In this document: piece by piece, positions 10,637 through 57,909 of the stretch
Position numbering within the stretch: the stretch's first letter is position 1
How the letters are laid out: each line of letters begins with the position of its first letter
Assembly (NCBI GenBank): GCA_039962225.1
Contig: JAMPKV010000010.1
Coordinates: 186,001-250,000, forward strand
DNA: 64,000 bases
DNA from: Microcoleus sp. AS-A8
GTDB taxonomy: Bacteria; Cyanobacteriota; Cyanobacteriia; Cyanobacteriales; Coleofasciculaceae
Direction: 5' to 3'
Notes under the pieces: generated by a model
Seen by the model: only the letters and a program-made list of their open reading frames with translations
Told to the model about the DNA's origin: nothing
Databases searched by the model: none
Position numbers and translations under genes: made by a program

Positions 10637-11310
10637 CGCTCCTGAGTAAAATCCTTGCCTACTTTTCTACCCTAATCATCCTGCTAACCATAGCCTCTTT
10701 CCTCTATCTGTGCGCTCATCCAGGGTTGGTCGGCGTGGGACTATTGCTGTTTTTCTTATACGGGTTTCCTGTGCTGATTTATCGCCTCCATCAGCGCTTC
10801 TATCCCGTCGAGGAAGGCATTAGCTATCTGTGCGGTAACGAGTATAGCCCTTGGTGGGGTAGCCATCAAATTCAGGTAATTTATATCGCCGTTCCGGCAT
10901 TGGAAGCCGTGCTACGACTCATTCCCGGTGCTTTTTCCTTGTGGTTGCGCCTCTGGGGGGCAAAAGTGGGTCAAAACGTATACTGGACACCTGGACTGGA
11001 AATTGCGGATCGGGGATTGTTGGAAATTGGCGATCGCGCTGTCTTTGGTCATCACATTGGCATCTACCCCCACATCATCAAACCCCGCAAACAAGACTTA
11101 ATGTTGTACGTCAAAAAAGTCAAGATTGGCAGTGATGTTTTCCTGGGGGCAGGTTCTCATTTTGGCCCCGGCGTTGTCGTCCCAGATGGCACTTATCTAC
11201 CTGTCGCCACTAACCTTTATCCTAATCAAGAAGCGAAATCATGCGCTGGTTCATCAAACTCTTTGAGCAACTTCTCGCCCCAAGCGCTGAACGCTTCCGA
11301 GACGCTTTAA
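10633..11310 (+). CDS. Hexapeptide-repeat (left-handed beta-helix) acyltransferase, membrane-anchored, cluster gene 8
   Basis: A 225-residue protein. Two N-terminal membrane helices (about 8-50) precede VEEGISYLCGNEYSPWWG and a left-handed beta-helix of hexapeptide units from about 105 (GAKVGQNVYWTPG, LEIGDRAVFGHHIGIYPH, VKIGSDVFLGAGSHFGPGV). The His pair in FGHHIG is a plausible catalytic site. Such proteins O- or N-acetylate or acylate small substrates. The last 22 residues (serine/asparagine-rich) overlap the GH3 gene by 70 bases and look like read-through rather than conserved fold. It starts in an ATGA overlap with the hydroxylase gene, so translational coupling is likely. Confidence 0.78.
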   Translation: MTLLSKILAYFSTLIILLTIASFLYLCAHPGLVGVGLLLFFLYGFPVLIYRLHQRFYPVEEGISYLCGNEYSPWWGSHQIQVIYIAVPALEAVLRLIPGAFSLWLRLWGAKVGQNVYWTPGLEIADRGLLEIGDRAVFGHHIGIYPHIIKPRKQDLMLYVKKVKIGSDVFLGAGSHFGPGVVVPDGTYLPVATNLYPNQEAKSCAGSSNSLSNFSPQALNASETL

Positions 11311-12941
11311 AACATCCCGAAAAGGCTCAAAAACGAGTGCAGCAGGAAATTTGCGATCGCCTTATCAAGAGCGAGTACGGCAAGTACCTGGGCATTCGCT
11401 CTCTCCAAGCTTGGCAACAAGTTCCGATTGTTGACTACGACGACCTCAAACCCTGGATTGATGGAGTAGGGGGACACAGCAGCAGGGGGACAGAGGGTAA
11501 ATCAATCACTCATCCATTACAGGCGCAACTCACTAGCGAACCCATCCTTTTTTACGAAAAAACCTCTGGAAGTCGCAGTGCCGCCAAATTGATACCCTAC
11601 ACCAAATCCCTGCGGCGTTCCTTTAATCACATGTTTTGTGTTTGGGCGCATGACCTAATCCGCAATGGCCCTGCTTTTTCAACAGGTAAAATTTACTTCT
11701 GCATTTCTCCCCAGTTCCAATACTGTTCGGATAAGACTGACCTAACCCCCCTAGCCCTCCTCACTAAAGCTCCGGTTCCCTACGAGGGAAGGGGGGAGTT
11801 AGACGCCCCTCTCCTACAAGGAGAGGGGTTGGGGGAGAGGTTAACCGAGAATGCCCCTAATCTCGATCATTCATCCTTACAAGATGACTCCGAATACCTC
11901 GATCGCTGGTTGAGGTGGCTGCTTCATCCCTTTCTAATTTCTCCTGGCTTAGTGCATCAGTTGAGAACGGCAGAGGAGTTTAAGCGGCAGTTATGTCTTG
12001 CCTTACTGCAAGCAGAAAAGCTAGAAACCATTTCAATTTGGAGTCCTACTTTTCTCAAGATTCATCTCAATTACATCCAAACGCACCGCACAGAGTTGCG
12101 GCAGTCGTTGAAAATATCCGCAGAACGCGATCGCCTACTGTGCGAACCGGAAATTCCTTGGACGAAACTGTGGCCTGAGTTGAAGCTAATTTCCTGCTGG
12201 GATAGCGCCTGCGCCGCCGATCCAGCTCAAGTTCTACATGATCTATTTCCGGGTGTCATGGTGCAGGGTAAAGGACTTTTAGCCACAGAAGCGCCGATGA
12301 CGATTCCCCTAATTGCCGCACAAGGATGCGTTCCCGTACTGGATGAAGTGTTCTTTGAGTTTGAGGATGAATCGGGGGAAATTTATCTGCTGCAAGACCT
12401 GCAAATTGGACAGGAATACACCATCATTCTTTCGCAAAAGGGAGGGCTTTACCGCTATCGAATTGGCGATCGCGTGCGTGTTACCCATTACTACCTCAAT
12501 ACCCCATGCCTGGAATTTTTAGGGCGCGATTCCTCCATCAGTGATTTAGTAGGTGAAAAGCTACACGAAGAATTTGTCAGCGAGGCACTCAAAGAATTAG
12601 CGTTAGAAGGCACATCGTTTCAGTGCTTAGTGCCTACGATAATTCCGGAAGCGCATTATATTCTCTTACTGGATAAGGTGAATACACCTACTAATGCGAT
12701 TGCTGAGCAATTAGAACAATTCCTACATCAGTCTCCCCACTATCGCCATGCCCGACTGCTCGGTCAACTCTCTTCAGTTCAGGTTTTAGTCTCTCAGCAA
12801 ATACCTGAAATATTGACCAGCCAACGAATAGCGTCTGGGAAAAAGTGGGGAGATATTAAACACTCGCTTTTGTGCGAGCGACCGATTGAAGAAGACTTAC
12901 TGGTCAGGTTGAAGCAAGCCGATTCTTTGCAACAATCTTAA
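11241..12941 (+). CDS. GH3 family acyl-acid amido synthetase-like enzyme, cluster gene 9
   Basis: A 566-residue member of the GH3 auxin-responsive promoter family, ATP-dependent enzymes that adenylate a carboxylate and join it to an amino acid. Visible motifs are the phosphate-binding YEKTSGSRSAAK (105-116), GLLATEAPM (345-353) and YRYRIGD (404-410), then LEFLGRDSSISDLVGEKL. Bacterial substrates are mostly unknown. Two stretches do not look like GH3 protein: residues about 76-87 and about 167-205, encoded by low-complexity DNA and by a dispersed palindromic repeat; both keep the frame. It closes the cluster; no terminator hairpin is obvious after it. Amide-bond formation to a cluster-made acid is a reasonable inference. 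Confidence 0.85.
   Translation: MRWFIKLFEQLLAPSAERFRDALKHPEKAQKRVQQEICDRLIKSEYGKYLGIRSLQAWQQVPIVDYDDLKPWIDGVGGHSSRGTEGKSITHPLQAQLTSEPILFYEKTSGSRSAAKLIPYTKSLRRSFNHMFCVWAHDLIRNGPAFSTGKIYFCISPQFQYCSDKTDLTPLALLTKAPVPYEGRGELDAPLLQGEGLGERLTENAPNLDHSSLQDDSEYLDRWLRWLLHPFLISPGLVHQLRTAEEFKRQLCLALLQAEKLETISIWSPTFLKIHLNYIQTHRTELRQSLKISAERDRLLCEPEIPWTKLWPELKLISCWDSACAADPAQVLHDLFPGVMVQGKGLLATEAPMTIPLIAAQGCVPVLDEVFFEFEDESGEIYLLQDLQIGQEYTIILSQKGGLYRYRIGDRVRVTHYYLNTPCLEFLGRDSSISDLVGEKLHEEFVSEALKELALEGTSFQCLVPTIIPEAHYILLLDKVNTPTNAIAEQLEQFLHQSPHYRHARLLGQLSSVQVLVSQQIPEILTSQRIASGKKWGDIKHSLLCERPIEEDLLVRLKQADSLQQS
11738..11855 (+). repeat. Dispersed palindromic repeat inserted in frame in the GH3 gene
   Basis: This segment contains, at 11756-11776, a 21-base stretch that is the exact reverse complement of 24330-24350 and 24400-24420. 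It also contains a short hairpin (TCTCCTACAAGGAGA, around 11812-11828) that recurs at about 19866-19882. It codes for a G/L/P-rich insertion between otherwise GH3-like sequence and has no stop codon. Confidence 0.8.
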
Positions 12942-19703: not shown

Positions 19704-20010
19704 TCAATAGCCGATTACAGCTCACCTTCTGCACCCTCAACCAACAGTTACTCTGGAAACATAGCAGTTCTCAGTTGTATGGAGTACATCAGAATAACCT
19801 AACCCCCTACCTCGTCATCCTCACATAAGAGTTCCGGTCGCTCCGGTTCCTACCTCTCCCGACGCCTCTCCTACAAGGAGAGGGAAAAGGAATAATGTTT
19901 TTAACTGGAAGGGGAGTAAGAATCAAAGCCTCTCTCCTTTTAGGAGAGAGGTTTTCCAGAGAGGTCACAAGAGTGTACATAATGCCATCGAGAAGGGCTA
20001 TAGTAACCTG
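19704..20010. repeat. Palindromic repeat cluster between convergent genes
   Basis: This gap contains a diverged copy of the repeat family found in the GH3 gene (TTCCGGT and CTCTCCTACAAGGAGAG, about 19830-19885). It also contains a perfect 10-base stem with a 3-base loop at 19929-19951 (CCTCTCTCCT/AGGAGAGAGG) followed by TTTT, which could end transcription of the upstream gene. Confidence 0.65.
19929..19955 (+). terminator. Hairpin plus T-run
   Basis: A perfect 10-bp stem (19929-19938 with 19942-19951), TTT loop, then TTTT at 19952-19955. It lies 226 bases beyond the small membrane protein gene and is built from repeat DNA, so terminator function is possible but not certain. Confidence 0.45.
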
Positions 20011-24196: not shown

Positions 24197-24622
24197 CGGT
24201 AACCCAGTATCCTGTTTGAAAAGGGTACATTACACCGCATTAACGCACCCTATAAATTAGGGTATTCGCTCTATTAAGATTCATGGCACTGACTTAAGAA
24301 TTTCTTAGCTCACCAAGGAACCCTTGTGCACCGGAGCTTTAGTGAGGAGGTCTGGGGGAGGCACGTGCGCTAACGCGCCCCGCTTCGCTATCGTCCCCCA
24401 CCGGAGCTTTAGTGAGGAGGGGGTTTGGGGGGAAACCCCCCAATCTGGGTTTTTCCAACAAACGATCACTTGTTCCTTAAGTCAGTGACATTCCTACCTA
24501 AGATAGTGCGATCGCATCATCCAGCAATAGCTTGTGAGAAAAACCTCGCCTTGTTCAGGAGCCGGTTTAATCGGGAATCGGCGATACTGGAGCAACCGAT
24601 AATATCCAGCTAATTCCGGAGA
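24197..24622. repeat. Repeat-rich intergenic region with duplicated 22-mer
   Basis: The same 22 bases occur at 24329-24350 and 24399-24420; 21 of them recur in reverse complement inside the GH3 gene. Between the copies is a GC-rich stretch with GTGCGCTAACGCGCC. After the second copy a hairpin (GGGTTT, G6, AAACCC; about 24418-24441) is formed. A REP-like TTAACGCACCCTA lies at about 24240. No gene is seen. Confidence 0.8.
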
Positions 24623-28633: not shown

Positions 28634-29863
28634 ATGCAACCCGGAAAAATCAGCATCAGTGTTCTCATCGCTCTACTCGCTGCTACCACCACCGCATTCG
28701 CTCCTAATTTTCCACGGTCTTTGGCAGCACCACCTGCACTGGCTCAAGCCTCAGCAGGTCGGAAAGCGGAAGCAGATCGACTGCGAGAACAAGGCAAACA
28801 GGAGTATAGAACCAGTCAATTTCCAGCGGCTTTACAGTCTTATCAACAGGCATTGACTATCTACAAGAAGATAGGCGATCTCACTGGAGAAAGCAGAACT
28901 CTGTTAAGTTTAGGCAATACTTACTGGTATTTAGGACAATACCAGCAAGCCATTGAATCTTATCAGCAAGCACGGGCGATGGCACGAGACATCCGTGATC
29001 GCCATGGGGAAATCTTAACCCTGTCAGGTCTGGGTTATGCTTATTTTGCCCTAGACCAATACCAACAAGCGATTGACTATTATCAGCAAGCACGGGTGAT
29101 TGCGCTAGACATCGGTGATCGCTATGGGGAAGCTGAGTCTGTTAGAGGTCTAGGTCAGACTTACGAATCTTTAGGACAATACCAGCAGGCCATCAAATAC
29201 TATGGGCAGTCGGTAGCCATTGCCAGGGACATCGGTGAGCGCAGTGAGGAAGTTTTTTCCCTCATCAATTTAGGTAATGCTCACTGGTATCTGAGACAAG
29301 ACCAGAAAGCGCTTGAGTATTATCAGCAGGCACGGGTGATTGCACGAGACATCGGCGATCGCAATGGGGAAGCCATGTCTTTGGGAGGTTTGGGCAACAC
29401 GTACAGTAGCCTAGGGCAATACCAGCGAGCGATCAAGTACCAGCAGCAGTGGCTGGACATTGCACGGGAAATCGGTCAACGCTCTGAAGAATCTAGGGCT
29501 TTGGTTAATCTAGGTATTGCTTACGATAAGCTTGGACAATACCAGTCAGCGCTTAATTCTTATCAGCAGGCATTGAAAATTCAACGAGAAATTGGTGATC
29601 GTGACTCTGAAAGCCTAACTCTCAGTAATCTCGGTGAACTACTAGCCAAACAAAACCAACTAGAACAAGCCATTACCTTCTACAAACAATCTGTCGATGT
29701 CAGAGAAGAGATTCGGCGAAATATCCGAGCGCTATCCAAAAAACAGCAAGACTCTTATACCGACACCATTGCGGGTACCTATCGCGCTTTAGCAGACTTA
29801 CTCTTCAAACAAGGCCGAATTTCGGAAGCGCAAGAAGTCCTTGATTTACTCAAAGTCCAGTAA
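28634..29863 (+). CDS. Secreted TPR protein, remnant of a TPR-CHAT protein
   Basis: ATG 28634 follows GAGGA and begins a signal peptide (hydrophobic to about 30, then PPALAQ), giving 409 residues. About seven 40-residue TPR units follow, each with a DIGDR or DIRDR turn and YQQAI/YQQAR (kinesin-light-chain type). The C-terminal RNIRALSKKQQDSYTDTI through LFKQGRISEAQEVLDLLKVQ is the segment that in TPR-CHAT proteins continues as E-L-x-x-Y-L into the CHAT peptidase. Here TAA replaces that Glu, and reading on gives LEGYLNNIRGSHTAH, still family-like, before similarity ends. The CHAT domain is gone. The TPR part may still act as a periplasmic scaffold. Confidence 0.85.
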   Translation: MQPGKISISVLIALLAATTTAFAPNFPRSLAAPPALAQASAGRKAEADRLREQGKQEYRTSQFPAALQSYQQALTIYKKIGDLTGESRTLLSLGNTYWYLGQYQQAIESYQQARAMARDIRDRHGEILTLSGLGYAYFALDQYQQAIDYYQQARVIALDIGDRYGEAESVRGLGQTYESLGQYQQAIKYYGQSVAIARDIGERSEEVFSLINLGNAHWYLRQDQKALEYYQQARVIARDIGDRNGEAMSLGGLGNTYSSLGQYQRAIKYQQQWLDIAREIGQRSEESRALVNLGIAYDKLGQYQSALNSYQQALKIQREIGDRDSESLTLSNLGELLAKQNQLEQAITFYKQSVDVREEIRRNIRALSKKQQDSYTDTIAGTYRALADLLFKQGRISEAQEVLDLLKVQ

Positions 29864-40365: not shown

Positions 40366-41913
40366 TTATCCTTCTTTACCCTTAATCTTGAAGTCATCAT
40401 AAATAATTGAATATTCAACGAGAGTGGCATTTTGCTGTTTGGCGATTTGTTGCAGCAACTCGATAGTGGGTGGAGTGATGGCGGACTTGTCTGAGTTAGA
40501 TTTTGTAGCGTTACGCAAGGCTATTAGCTCTACAAACGCCCTGGTACGTCCCCGTTCAGCAATTTCTAGAGCAGCATTAGGGTTATTCTGGGCGATGAGG
40601 ACTTGTTGTAAAACGCGGTAGGTGCGAGCTTGCTGTTCAAAAATTGAGACTTTGTAAGCATCATTGTCACCCAATCGTTCCCTTAGAGATTCCCTAGTCT
40701 CAATTCCAGCGCGGAGGGTTCTTTCTGCCTCCGACAGATTGCCTTCTTTGAAGAGAGCAAGTCCTAGATTGTTAAGAGCTATCCCTTCCCCGTCCTTATC
40801 GTCAATTTTCTGTGCGATCGCTAAATTCTGCTGGTGGTACTCAATCGCTTTAGGGAAATTTCCCAGCCCACGGTAAGCATTTCCCAGATTTCCCAGAACA
40901 GTCCCCTCACCCCAAGGATCTTTGATTTCGCGTGCGATCGCTAAACTCTGCTGGTGGTAGTCAATCGCTCTAGGGTAATCTCCTAGAGCCTGGTAAGCAT
41001 TGCCCAAATTCGAGAGAGCATTCCTCTCCCCCAGACGGTCTTTAATTTCTTGTGCAATGACTAAATGCTGCTGGTGGTACTCAATCGCTTTAGGATAATC
41101 TCCCAAGGAACGGTAAGCATTTCCCAGATTTCCTAGAGATGCTCCCTCACCCCCAGGGTCATTGATTTCGCGTGCGATCGCTAAACGCTGCTGATGGTAT
41201 TCAATCGCTTTAGGGTAATCTCCCAGAGCCTGGTAAGCAATTCCCAGATTCGAGAGAGAACGGCTCTCACCTAGACGGTCTTCGATTTGTCGTTTGATGG
41301 CTAAACTCTGCTGCTGGTACTCAATCGCTTTGGCGTAATCTCCCAGGGATTCGTAAGCAAGTCCCAGGCTGCCTAGAGATGCTCCCTTACCCCCAGGGTC
41401 ATTGATTTCGCGTGCGATCGCTAAACTCTGCTGCTGGTACTCAATCGCTTTGGTGTAATCGCCCAAGGATTCGTAAGCACTTCCCAGATTTCCCAGAGCA
41501 TTCCCCTCAACTAAGCGGTCTTTAATTTCTCTGCCGATGGCTAAACTCTGCTTGTAGTAGTCAATCGCTTTGGTGTAATTTCCTAGGTTATAGTAAGCAA
41601 CTCCCAGATTGCCCAGAGTCTTCCCCTCACCTACACGGTCTTTGATTTCCTGGTAGATTGTCAATGCCTGTTCCCAAGACTTTACTGCTGCCTCAACTTG
41701 ACCCGTCTGAGCCTGCTCAATACCTTGCTTTCGCAGTCGGCCTGCTTCTGCTTTCCGTGCATCTGGAGTTTGAGCCAAAACCTGGGAATTGTGACTTTTA
41801 GACTTTGGATTTTGGATTAATTGCCCTAAAACTGGAAATCCAAAATCGACATTCACAAGAGTTGCCAGGGCGGTAATGACACCAGTAAGTCCAATTCTAT
41901 AGAGACGCATCAT
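40366..41913 (-). CDS. Secreted TPR protein, N-terminal half of a TPR-CHAT protein
   Basis: A 515-residue protein: hydrophobic start (about 1-25, MMRLYRIGLTGVITALATLV), then about eight 40-residue TPR units with the EIKDR/EINDPGGEG turn and YQQSLAIA/YHQQ helices, then a helical FVELIALRNATKSNSDKSA domain and LLQQIAKQQNATLVEYSIIY, the linker that leads into CHAT. The stop TAA is where GEKE-type sequence would continue (GKEG-stop-KETELYIW). CHAT peptidases with TPR sensors are caspase-like regulators; in several bacteria they control programmed death or gasdermin-like pores. An insertion from repeat-like DNA (41781-41822, NPKSKSHNSQ) is near the signal peptide. Confidence 0.85.
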   Translation of the reverse strand: MMRLYRIGLTGVITALATLVNVDFGFPVLGQLIQNPKSKSHNSQVLAQTPDARKAEAGRLRKQGIEQAQTGQVEAAVKSWEQALTIYQEIKDRVGEGKTLGNLGVAYYNLGNYTKAIDYYKQSLAIGREIKDRLVEGNALGNLGSAYESLGDYTKAIEYQQQSLAIAREINDPGGKGASLGSLGLAYESLGDYAKAIEYQQQSLAIKRQIEDRLGESRSLSNLGIAYQALGDYPKAIEYHQQRLAIAREINDPGGEGASLGNLGNAYRSLGDYPKAIEYHQQHLVIAQEIKDRLGERNALSNLGNAYQALGDYPRAIDYHQQSLAIAREIKDPWGEGTVLGNLGNAYRGLGNFPKAIEYHQQNLAIAQKIDDKDGEGIALNNLGLALFKEGNLSEAERTLRAGIETRESLRERLGDNDAYKVSIFEQQARTYRVLQQVLIAQNNPNAALEIAERGRTRAFVELIALRNATKSNSDKSAITPPTIELLQQIAKQQNATLVEYSIIYDDFKIKGKEG

Positions 41914-56418: not shown

Positions 56419-57909
56419 CTACGGCTGAAGCTTTTTAATTGTCTCTACTATTTCCTGAGAAGATTTAACATCCCCTTGCTCCTGGAAAAGTTTCGCGGCG
56501 GCTTGTAAATCCTCGATCGCTTTTTGCTTGTCCCCAAAACGGCTGTAAGCGAAACCTCGACAGGTAAGCGTCGTGGCATCATTCCCATTCATTTGCAAGA
56601 CGTGATTAAAATCTGCAATGGCTCCCGGAAAGTCTCCTATCTGAAGCTTTTCTACCCCTTGATGATAGTAATCTTTCGGCGTTTGTCCAACTGTAACCGC
56701 TGGTGTTGATTGTAAAGATGACTGGTTATTCAAAGAGAGATTTTTAGCCGTTTCTAAATCCTCTAATGCACCTTCGTAGTCTCTCAGAGCAGAACGAACA
56801 GTACTGCGTCGGTTGTAGGCTTCAAGATGATTGGGGTCGAGATTTAATACTTGATTAAACGCATTGAGTGCTGCGTGATAATCCCCGGATTCATATCTCA
56901 GATTACCCTGGAGCATCAAACCTTGGATCAGTTGCTGATTTTCATCCTCTACAGCACCCAATTCCTGGCTAAAAGCCGGAGCCATTTGACTAAAAAATGC
57001 CTTCGCCGAAACGGAATCGAGATGCAGCGCTTGGTCAAAATCTTCCAGACTTCCCCAATTATCACCCACTTGCAAACGGGTATAACCCCGGTTGAGGTAA
57101 GCTTGTGTATAGTTAGGATTCAGTTTTAGGGCTTCGTTAAAATCTGCGATCGCCTCTTGATATTCTCCCAACCCGATGCGATTTAACCCTCGGTTAAAGT
57201 AACCTTCGGCAAGATTGGGATTAATGTTTAAAGCTTGGTTATAATCTTCCATGGCTTTTGGATAATCTTCTAATTCAAAATGAGCCATACCTCGGTATAG
57301 GTAGGCTTTAGGTAAATTGGGATTAATATTCAGAGCTGCATTGCAATCTGCGATCGCTTCCTGATAATCCGCTAATTCCACACGCAGTGGAATTCGATTC
57401 AAATAAGTTTTGATATGCTTAGCATCAATCTGCAACGCTTGGTTATAATCCTGCATGGCTCCCCAGCGATCGCCTAAAACAGCACGGACAAAACCTCGCT
57501 CATTGTAAGCCTCTGCATTGTGAGGATTAACCCGCAACACTTGGCTATAATCATTGATTGCTCCGAGATAATCGCCCTTCTTATAGCGACTCATCCCTCG
57601 ATAATAGTAAACCTCGGCAAAATCAGCATTGAACCGCAAAGCTTGGTTAAAGTCTTGAATAGCACCGCGATAATCCCCGCGATGAAATTTATTGAGTCCT
57701 TGCTTAAAAGATTCCGAGGCTTCTAGAGTTACCACTCCTGTAATCGCCGGCTTCATTGGCAGCGCTAGAGGCTCTAAAGAGTTGCCTGCAACCGCTTGCT
57801 GTTGACTCGCTAAATCCAATTCTTCCGTCAGGCTAGAAAAATTCCTGGACACTCTCCCCTTCCCTGATAAAACCATGATGTCGTTTTGTCGCTCATTGTC
57901 GCTGCTCAT
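56419..57909 (-). CDS. TPR repeat protein, classic 34-residue type
   Basis: A 496-residue protein with about eleven TPR units of the 34-residue type (for example YYYRGMSRYKKGDYLGAIND and AYNERGFVRAVLGD), two spans per group, ending in AIEDLQAAAKLFQEQGD. No signal peptide or membrane segment; an N-terminal 60-residue low-complexity region precedes the repeats. TPR arrays are protein-protein scaffolds. It is different from the CHAT-linked TPRs in this window. Neighbours give no partner. Confidence 0.88.
   Translation of the reverse strand: MSSDNERQNDIMVLSGKGRVSRNFSSLTEELDLASQQQAVAGNSLEPLALPMKPAITGVVTLEASESFKQGLNKFHRGDYRGAIQDFNQALRFNADFAEVYYYRGMSRYKKGDYLGAINDYSQVLRVNPHNAEAYNERGFVRAVLGDRWGAMQDYNQALQIDAKHIKTYLNRIPLRVELADYQEAIADCNAALNINPNLPKAYLYRGMAHFELEDYPKAMEDYNQALNINPNLAEGYFNRGLNRIGLGEYQEAIADFNEALKLNPNYTQAYLNRGYTRLQVGDNWGSLEDFDQALHLDSVSAKAFFSQMAPAFSQELGAVEDENQQLIQGLMLQGNLRYESGDYHAALNAFNQVLNLDPNHLEAYNRRSTVRSALRDYEGALEDLETAKNLSLNNQSSLQSTPAVTVGQTPKDYYHQGVEKLQIGDFPGAIADFNHVLQMNGNDATTLTCRGFAYSRFGDKQKAIEDLQAAAKLFQEQGDVKSSQEIVETIKKLQP

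Follow-up and report, generated by a model that had tools for sequence, protein, structure and literature searches.

Palindromic mobile DNA in frame in a cyanobacterial GH3-family gene: a composite repeat, probably carried by a MITE, whose core recurs in urease and other enzyme genes

Palindromic repeats that insert in frame into protein-coding genes were first found in Rickettsia, where the Rickettsia palindromic elements (RPE; Ogata et al. 2000), as recounted in two later articles (PMC2229807, PMC10969869), occur as in-frame inserts, and where a guanylate kinase bearing such an element is active (PMC2229807). In-frame intragenic REP families are known in several phyla, and GTAG REP families have been reported in cyanobacteria (PMC3733652). 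A 2024 review of MITEs treated a similar shaping of proteins in other prokaryotes as only conceivable (PMC10969869). The open-access literature yielded no report of the element described here, nor of in-frame inserts in cyanobacterial urease, an absence that carries little weight.

The window, a 64,000-nucleotide stretch of the genome of Microcoleus sp. AS-A8, encodes on its forward strand (11241-12941) a GH3-family protein of 566 amino acids, whose translation contains the N-terminal, central and C-terminal GH3 domains (Pfam PF03321, E 5e-24; PF23571, 3.7e-17; PF23572, 7e-6) and is matched by GH3 structures in the PDB. A repeat-derived insert occupies 11718-11852 of this gene, with GH3 domains still recognised on either side and the open frame unbroken from 11241 to 12941, insert included. 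The original prediction of an in-frame repeat that interrupts a GH3-like protein without a stop codon is thus borne out, although the extent then proposed, about 39 codons within 11738-11855, began too late and was too short; the insert runs from 11718 to about 11852, or roughly 40-48 codons.

The insert is composite, consisting of a palindromic core of about 90 nt (CCTAACCCC...GGGGGAGAGGT) within a MITE, and its parts are all read on the forward strand. The left inverted end of the MITE (CAATACTGTTCGGATAAG, 11718-11735) matches the family ends perfectly and starts at codon 160; the palindromic core (GACCTAACCCCCC...GGGGGAGAGGTT, 11739-11842) encodes DLTPLALLTKAPVPYEGRGELDAPLLQGEGLGER; and a putative, decayed right inverted end (AACCGAGAAT as against AACCGAACAGTATTG, 11843-11852) is placed by comparison with the right flanks of L118 and L122. 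The 21-mer CCTCCTCACTAAAGCTCCGGT lies at 11756-11776 and has two further copies between ORFs on the reverse strand (24330-24421), where, as had been claimed, the correspondence is exact: 11755-11776 and 24400-24421 are reverse complements of each other, and 24330-24350 stands in the same relation to the 21-nt core of 11755-11776. The second hairpin (CCCCTCTCCTACAAGGAGAGGGG, 11806-11828), likewise said to be shared, has an intergenic forward-strand copy, 11808-11827 and 19865-19884 forming an exact direct repeat of 20 nt. When counted in the 7.75-Mb genome, as the original prediction had proposed, the 21-mer has 14 exact copies and 75 at two mismatches or fewer, against none for the backward control, and is therefore repeated far above chance. 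A variant 21-mer class (TGTCCTCACTAAAGCTCCGGT) is frequent in the same genome, intermixed with CCTCCTCACTAAAGCTCCGGT, and is probably another repeat family that has this stretch in common. An Rfam search of the region returned one chance match only.

The affected loop, between CISPQ and DDSEYL, has 56 residues in the window protein, 51 in that of a sister species (91% amino acid identity) and 8-16 in the 28 insert-free homologues with a measurable loop, the alignment comprising 31 GH3 subfamily sequences. Because of this difference, the carriers can be said to have gained some 40-48 codons that are not native GH3 sequence. The long insert is found only in these two species and is absent from 29 of the 31 aligned subfamily members, and more distant GH3s also lack it, in agreement with the foreign origin first proposed, whose stated refutation, a shared amino-acid insert in homologues that lack the repeat, was looked for and not found. 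It is true that the GH3 loop varies in length and sequence across all homologues, which might suggest a native loop that resembles the repeats by chance or that was lost in other lineages; against this distribution, and with the same DNA dispersed through the same genome, intergenic copies included, that reading is scarcely credible. It is also very improbable that the gene is a decaying pseudogene whose frame has stayed open by luck. The frame is kept in two species, the indels between them are all in frame (5 and 9 codons), Pfam still detects GH3 domains before and after the insert, and dN/dS outside the insert is 0.19 (Nei-Gojobori, window species against sister species). The enzyme part of the gene is under purifying selection. 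The shorter of the two indels is a lack of five codons (TKAPV), part of the 21-mer site, inside the sister-species element (L010). Near codon 484, the same sister gene has an extra insert of nine residues (AIARRAVPK-like) that is absent from the window species. A second GH3 loop (window 11463-11520) is also longer in both carrier species (GVGGHSSRGTEGKSITHPLQ), and at this site L014 has an unrelated repeat-like insert (NPPQPPLKRGAE); as a dispersed repeat the second site was rejected, since the genome gave only the site itself and one weak partial match.

The intact frame, together with selection on the gene, suggests that the inserted peptide is translated, and a predicted tryptic peptide is GELDAPLLQGEGLGER. 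By the same Nei-Gojobori comparison, dN/dS within the insert is 0.41, a value drawn from 9 differences only, and the inserted peptide appears to be near-neutral. In the AlphaFold model, which is of moderate quality (mean pLDDT 68), residues 156-214 are unstructured between a strand at 150-153 and a helix from 216, with a pLDDT of about 25 that is due in part to the few homologues covering the insert; the peptide probably forms a long disordered loop.

Copies of the core have ACCTAACCCC...GGGGGAGAGGT in common and, taken over all copies, no shared sequence beyond it, and in most of them no common flank sequence extends past ACCT...AGGT. The core folds into an outer stem and two hairpins joined in a three-way junction, at -57 kcal/mol and a z of -2.9 for the window copy. 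In 82 copies, standard pairs fill 91.4% of pair cells, against 51-71% when the partner is slid as a control, and changes on both sides are seen at 13 of 33 pairs. A DNA search with the consensus core found matches in 15 of 19 genomes of the family, with a maximum of 52 in one, and an exact 29-mer of the core occurs in 71 stretches, all cyanobacterial, within a collection of 84,980 species; the genera concerned are Okeania, Coleofasciculus, Planktothrix, Nostoc, Calothrix, Anabaena and others. The core is thus widely dispersed in cyanobacteria. On a plasmid of Stanieria cyanosphaera, part of the element lies within an annotated cas10d (L410:3001-3038).

The inverted ends of the MITE (CAATACTGTTCGG / CCGAACAGTATTG) are paired in about 20 family copies; in the GH3 copy the left end alone is intact. 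The right-hand junction GAGAGGTTAACCGAACAGTAT occurs at 25 places in 291 genomes, compared with 3 for the reversed pattern. Paired-end units are mostly 74-125 nt long and have 10-bp target-site duplications, whose identity reaches at least 7/10 in 12 of 20 short pairs as against 1.3% of mismatched flanks; in a refined set, 14 family copies combine paired ends with a ten-bp duplication of at least 7/10, three of them perfect. A duplication of 10 bp is the length known from IS4-like elements. Within this small refined set, unit length plus 10 is divisible by three in all 6 copies that lie in open frames and in 5 of the 8 others. The NRPS copy in L095 lies in an open frame, has a unit plus 10 divisible by three and bears the duplication CGACAACACT/CGACAACACA. 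That NRPS ORF (L095:5693-10537) contains two element copies in different frames and orientations, one of them with a 9/10 target duplication. Because the same ends also enclose other interiors (L391, L392, L396, L276), the transposon is probably defined by its ends and not by its core. A search for a parent IS or transposase between CAATACTGTTCGG-CCGAACAGTATTG end pairs gave none that was convincing in about 1.7 Mb of DNA, five viral contigs and a plasmid collection.

The element has also entered many other genes. Among 63 copies sampled from DNA alone, 16 fall within an open frame that continues for about 60 codons or more both before and after the copy, against 46% of random positions in the same DNA, so that genes are avoided about two-fold but not excluded. 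Such open frames hold 45 of the 131 copies that are 65 nt or longer, in frames +0 (23), -2 (12), -1 (6), +2 (3) and +1 (1), a sample in which frame +0 is over-represented, some of the copies having been collected by a peptide search; copies in several frames and in both orientations rule out the use of a single frame. The sampling of copies was partly guided. Hosts supported by Pfam include urease alpha, NRPS condensation and adenylation domains, an NRPS reductase, a nitrite/sulfite reductase-like protein (NIR/SIR-like), asparagine synthase, type I restriction HsdR, a PKS, a PNKP ligase and CHAT proteins, and in a protein kinase the insert falls between HRDIKPEN and DFG. In the orthologues L099 and L112, from the two sister species, elements occupy the same site, and dS is 0.92 in the central hairpin against 0.20 in the flanks, as if a hairpin arm had been swapped. 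Elsewhere in the window, ORFs contain long arrays of in-frame direct repeats, the single repeat measuring 120, 120 and 102 nt (28877-29596, 40679-41698 and 57088-57664, respectively), a pattern typical of TPR-type proteins.

The urease alpha subunit provides the clearest contrast between enzyme and insert. Four genomes, which represent three genera of the family, have the core between KMKVQRG and DNFRAKRY of UreC, the UreC loop of the window species holds a rearranged core remnant, and the loops of other genomes hold a tandem GGACGGGCAAGATGCCCGTTCCACA-type repeat (two genomes) or a CCCCTAACCCCCC...AAGGGGG repeat (one genome). Outside this loop, UreC can be aligned over its full length to ureases of solved structure. 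With dN/dS at 0.02-0.06 the enzyme is strongly constrained, whereas the element, at 0.69-1.07, evolves near-neutrally. Because dS in the element is lower than in its flanks, recent arrival, conversion between copies or hairpin constraint is suggested. In the cyanobacteria compared, the KMKVQRG-DNFR loop hosts different dispersed repeats, one of them a tandem double (L282, L284, L285, L286, L283, L292, L290, L295).

How the insert reached the GH3 gene is best explained by transposition: a MITE very likely jumped into GH3, generating a 10-bp duplication, and was tolerated in a loop by virtue of its frame-compatible length. Insertion would duplicate 10 bp of target, and since unit and duplication together would be divisible by three and some frames of the core contain no stop, translation would carry on through the element. 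The peptide so added would form an extended, probably disordered loop that joins strand 150-153 to helix 216, and the enzyme core would keep its purifying selection while the insert diverged by in-frame indels and substitutions. The ancestral jump is read back from direct observations of the insertion, its frame, its conservation in the sister species, the ends and duplications of other family copies, and the selection on the enzyme; the right end and duplication of the GH3 copy appear to have decayed since. If this account is correct, an empty site should carry a single TCCCCAGTTC-like target. Weighing against it are the decayed right end (TTAACCGAGAAT), a best placement of the duplication that matches at 6 of 10 positions only and is thus not confidently placed, the missing parent transposase, and the many intragenic cores, as in UreC, that are without MITE ends. 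These last show that the core can reach a gene without the ends, and it may therefore also travel by itself along a different route.

A rather unlikely extension of that route is that the core is itself mobile, in the manner of REP/REPIN or small dispersed repeats, and that in GH3 it landed within an older MITE. The flanks of most cores, alike only up to ACCT...AGGT, the bare cores of UreC and the MITE ends around other interiors all favour such a sequence of events, yet no direct repeat was recognised around bare cores, and the core was near none of 13 loci with Y1-type transposase matches in three genomes, on which ground a RAYT/REP origin was rejected. Transposition of the whole MITE into GH3 is preferred, and different questions are what keeps the inserted peptides in place and whether the family is fitted to genes. 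Selection of the peptides for a function such as regulation or binding could be argued from copies that stay at one site across genera, as in the four UreC genomes, but is improbable given the difference in dN/dS between the UreC element and enzyme, the unrelated repeats that fill the same loop elsewhere, and the different frames and orientations, which give unrelated peptides. It is a speculative and doubtful idea that the MITE family keeps its unit plus 10-bp duplication at a multiple of three as an adaptation to survival in genes, the loops of urease alpha, GH3 and NRPS serving as recurrent landing pads where selfish DNA continually supplies new protein loops.

Regardless of the route of entry, these copies extend the passage of mobile DNA into coding sequence to free-living cyanobacteria, beyond the reduced genomes of Rickettsia. 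The hosts include assayable enzymes in which a strongly constrained enzyme is contrasted with a near-neutral inserted peptide, and because of that contrast selfish DNA as a source of protein becomes a testable proposition. On the practical side, inserted peptides can lead annotation and homology searches astray.

Among described systems are other small cyanobacterial repeats. In 2008, Elhai and colleagues reportedly described small dispersed repeats (SDRs) of 21-27 nt in cyanobacteria, and from their work and that of Zhou and colleagues in the same year, on SDRs and the Nezha MITE, some small cyanobacterial repeats are said to lie in minitransposons. The GH3 element resembles these as another small cyanobacterial repeat, a likeness by description only. 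With GTAG/CGTC REP families it shares short palindromes, some of them in frame within ORFs (PMC3733652), but it has no GTAG/CGTC foot, since the core ends in ACCT/AGGT and CTAC is found in loops only, and unlike GTAG REPs it has no RAYT (Y1) transposase neighbour at the 13 loci with Y1-type matches in three genomes. With bacterial MITEs such as ERIC and Correia it shares inverted ends, a target duplication and in-frame fusion to genes (Delihas, PMC2229807; PMC10969869), although the ends and the host phylum are other than those of ERIC and Correia and the composite interior contains a three-way junction. The likeness to Rickettsia that the original prediction drew holds for the way the element works, as it too is about 100-150 bp, palindromic and dispersed, lies in frame in many unrelated conserved genes as well as between genes, and encodes a peptide in its frame, but does not extend to common family. 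The 71 exact 29-mer stretches are cyanobacterial and not from Rickettsiales, the RPE sequences being set apart by host range and description, and unlike the RPE this cyanobacterial element has MITE ends with 10-bp duplications, is read in several frames and both orientations, and occupies sites reused by other repeats; the insert-bearing enzyme with a measured activity, guanylate kinase, belongs to the RPE. Thus the element works like the RPE but is a separate family, one that as a family has the terminal inverted repeats and 10-bp target-site duplication of a MITE, even though only the left end is intact in the GH3 copy.
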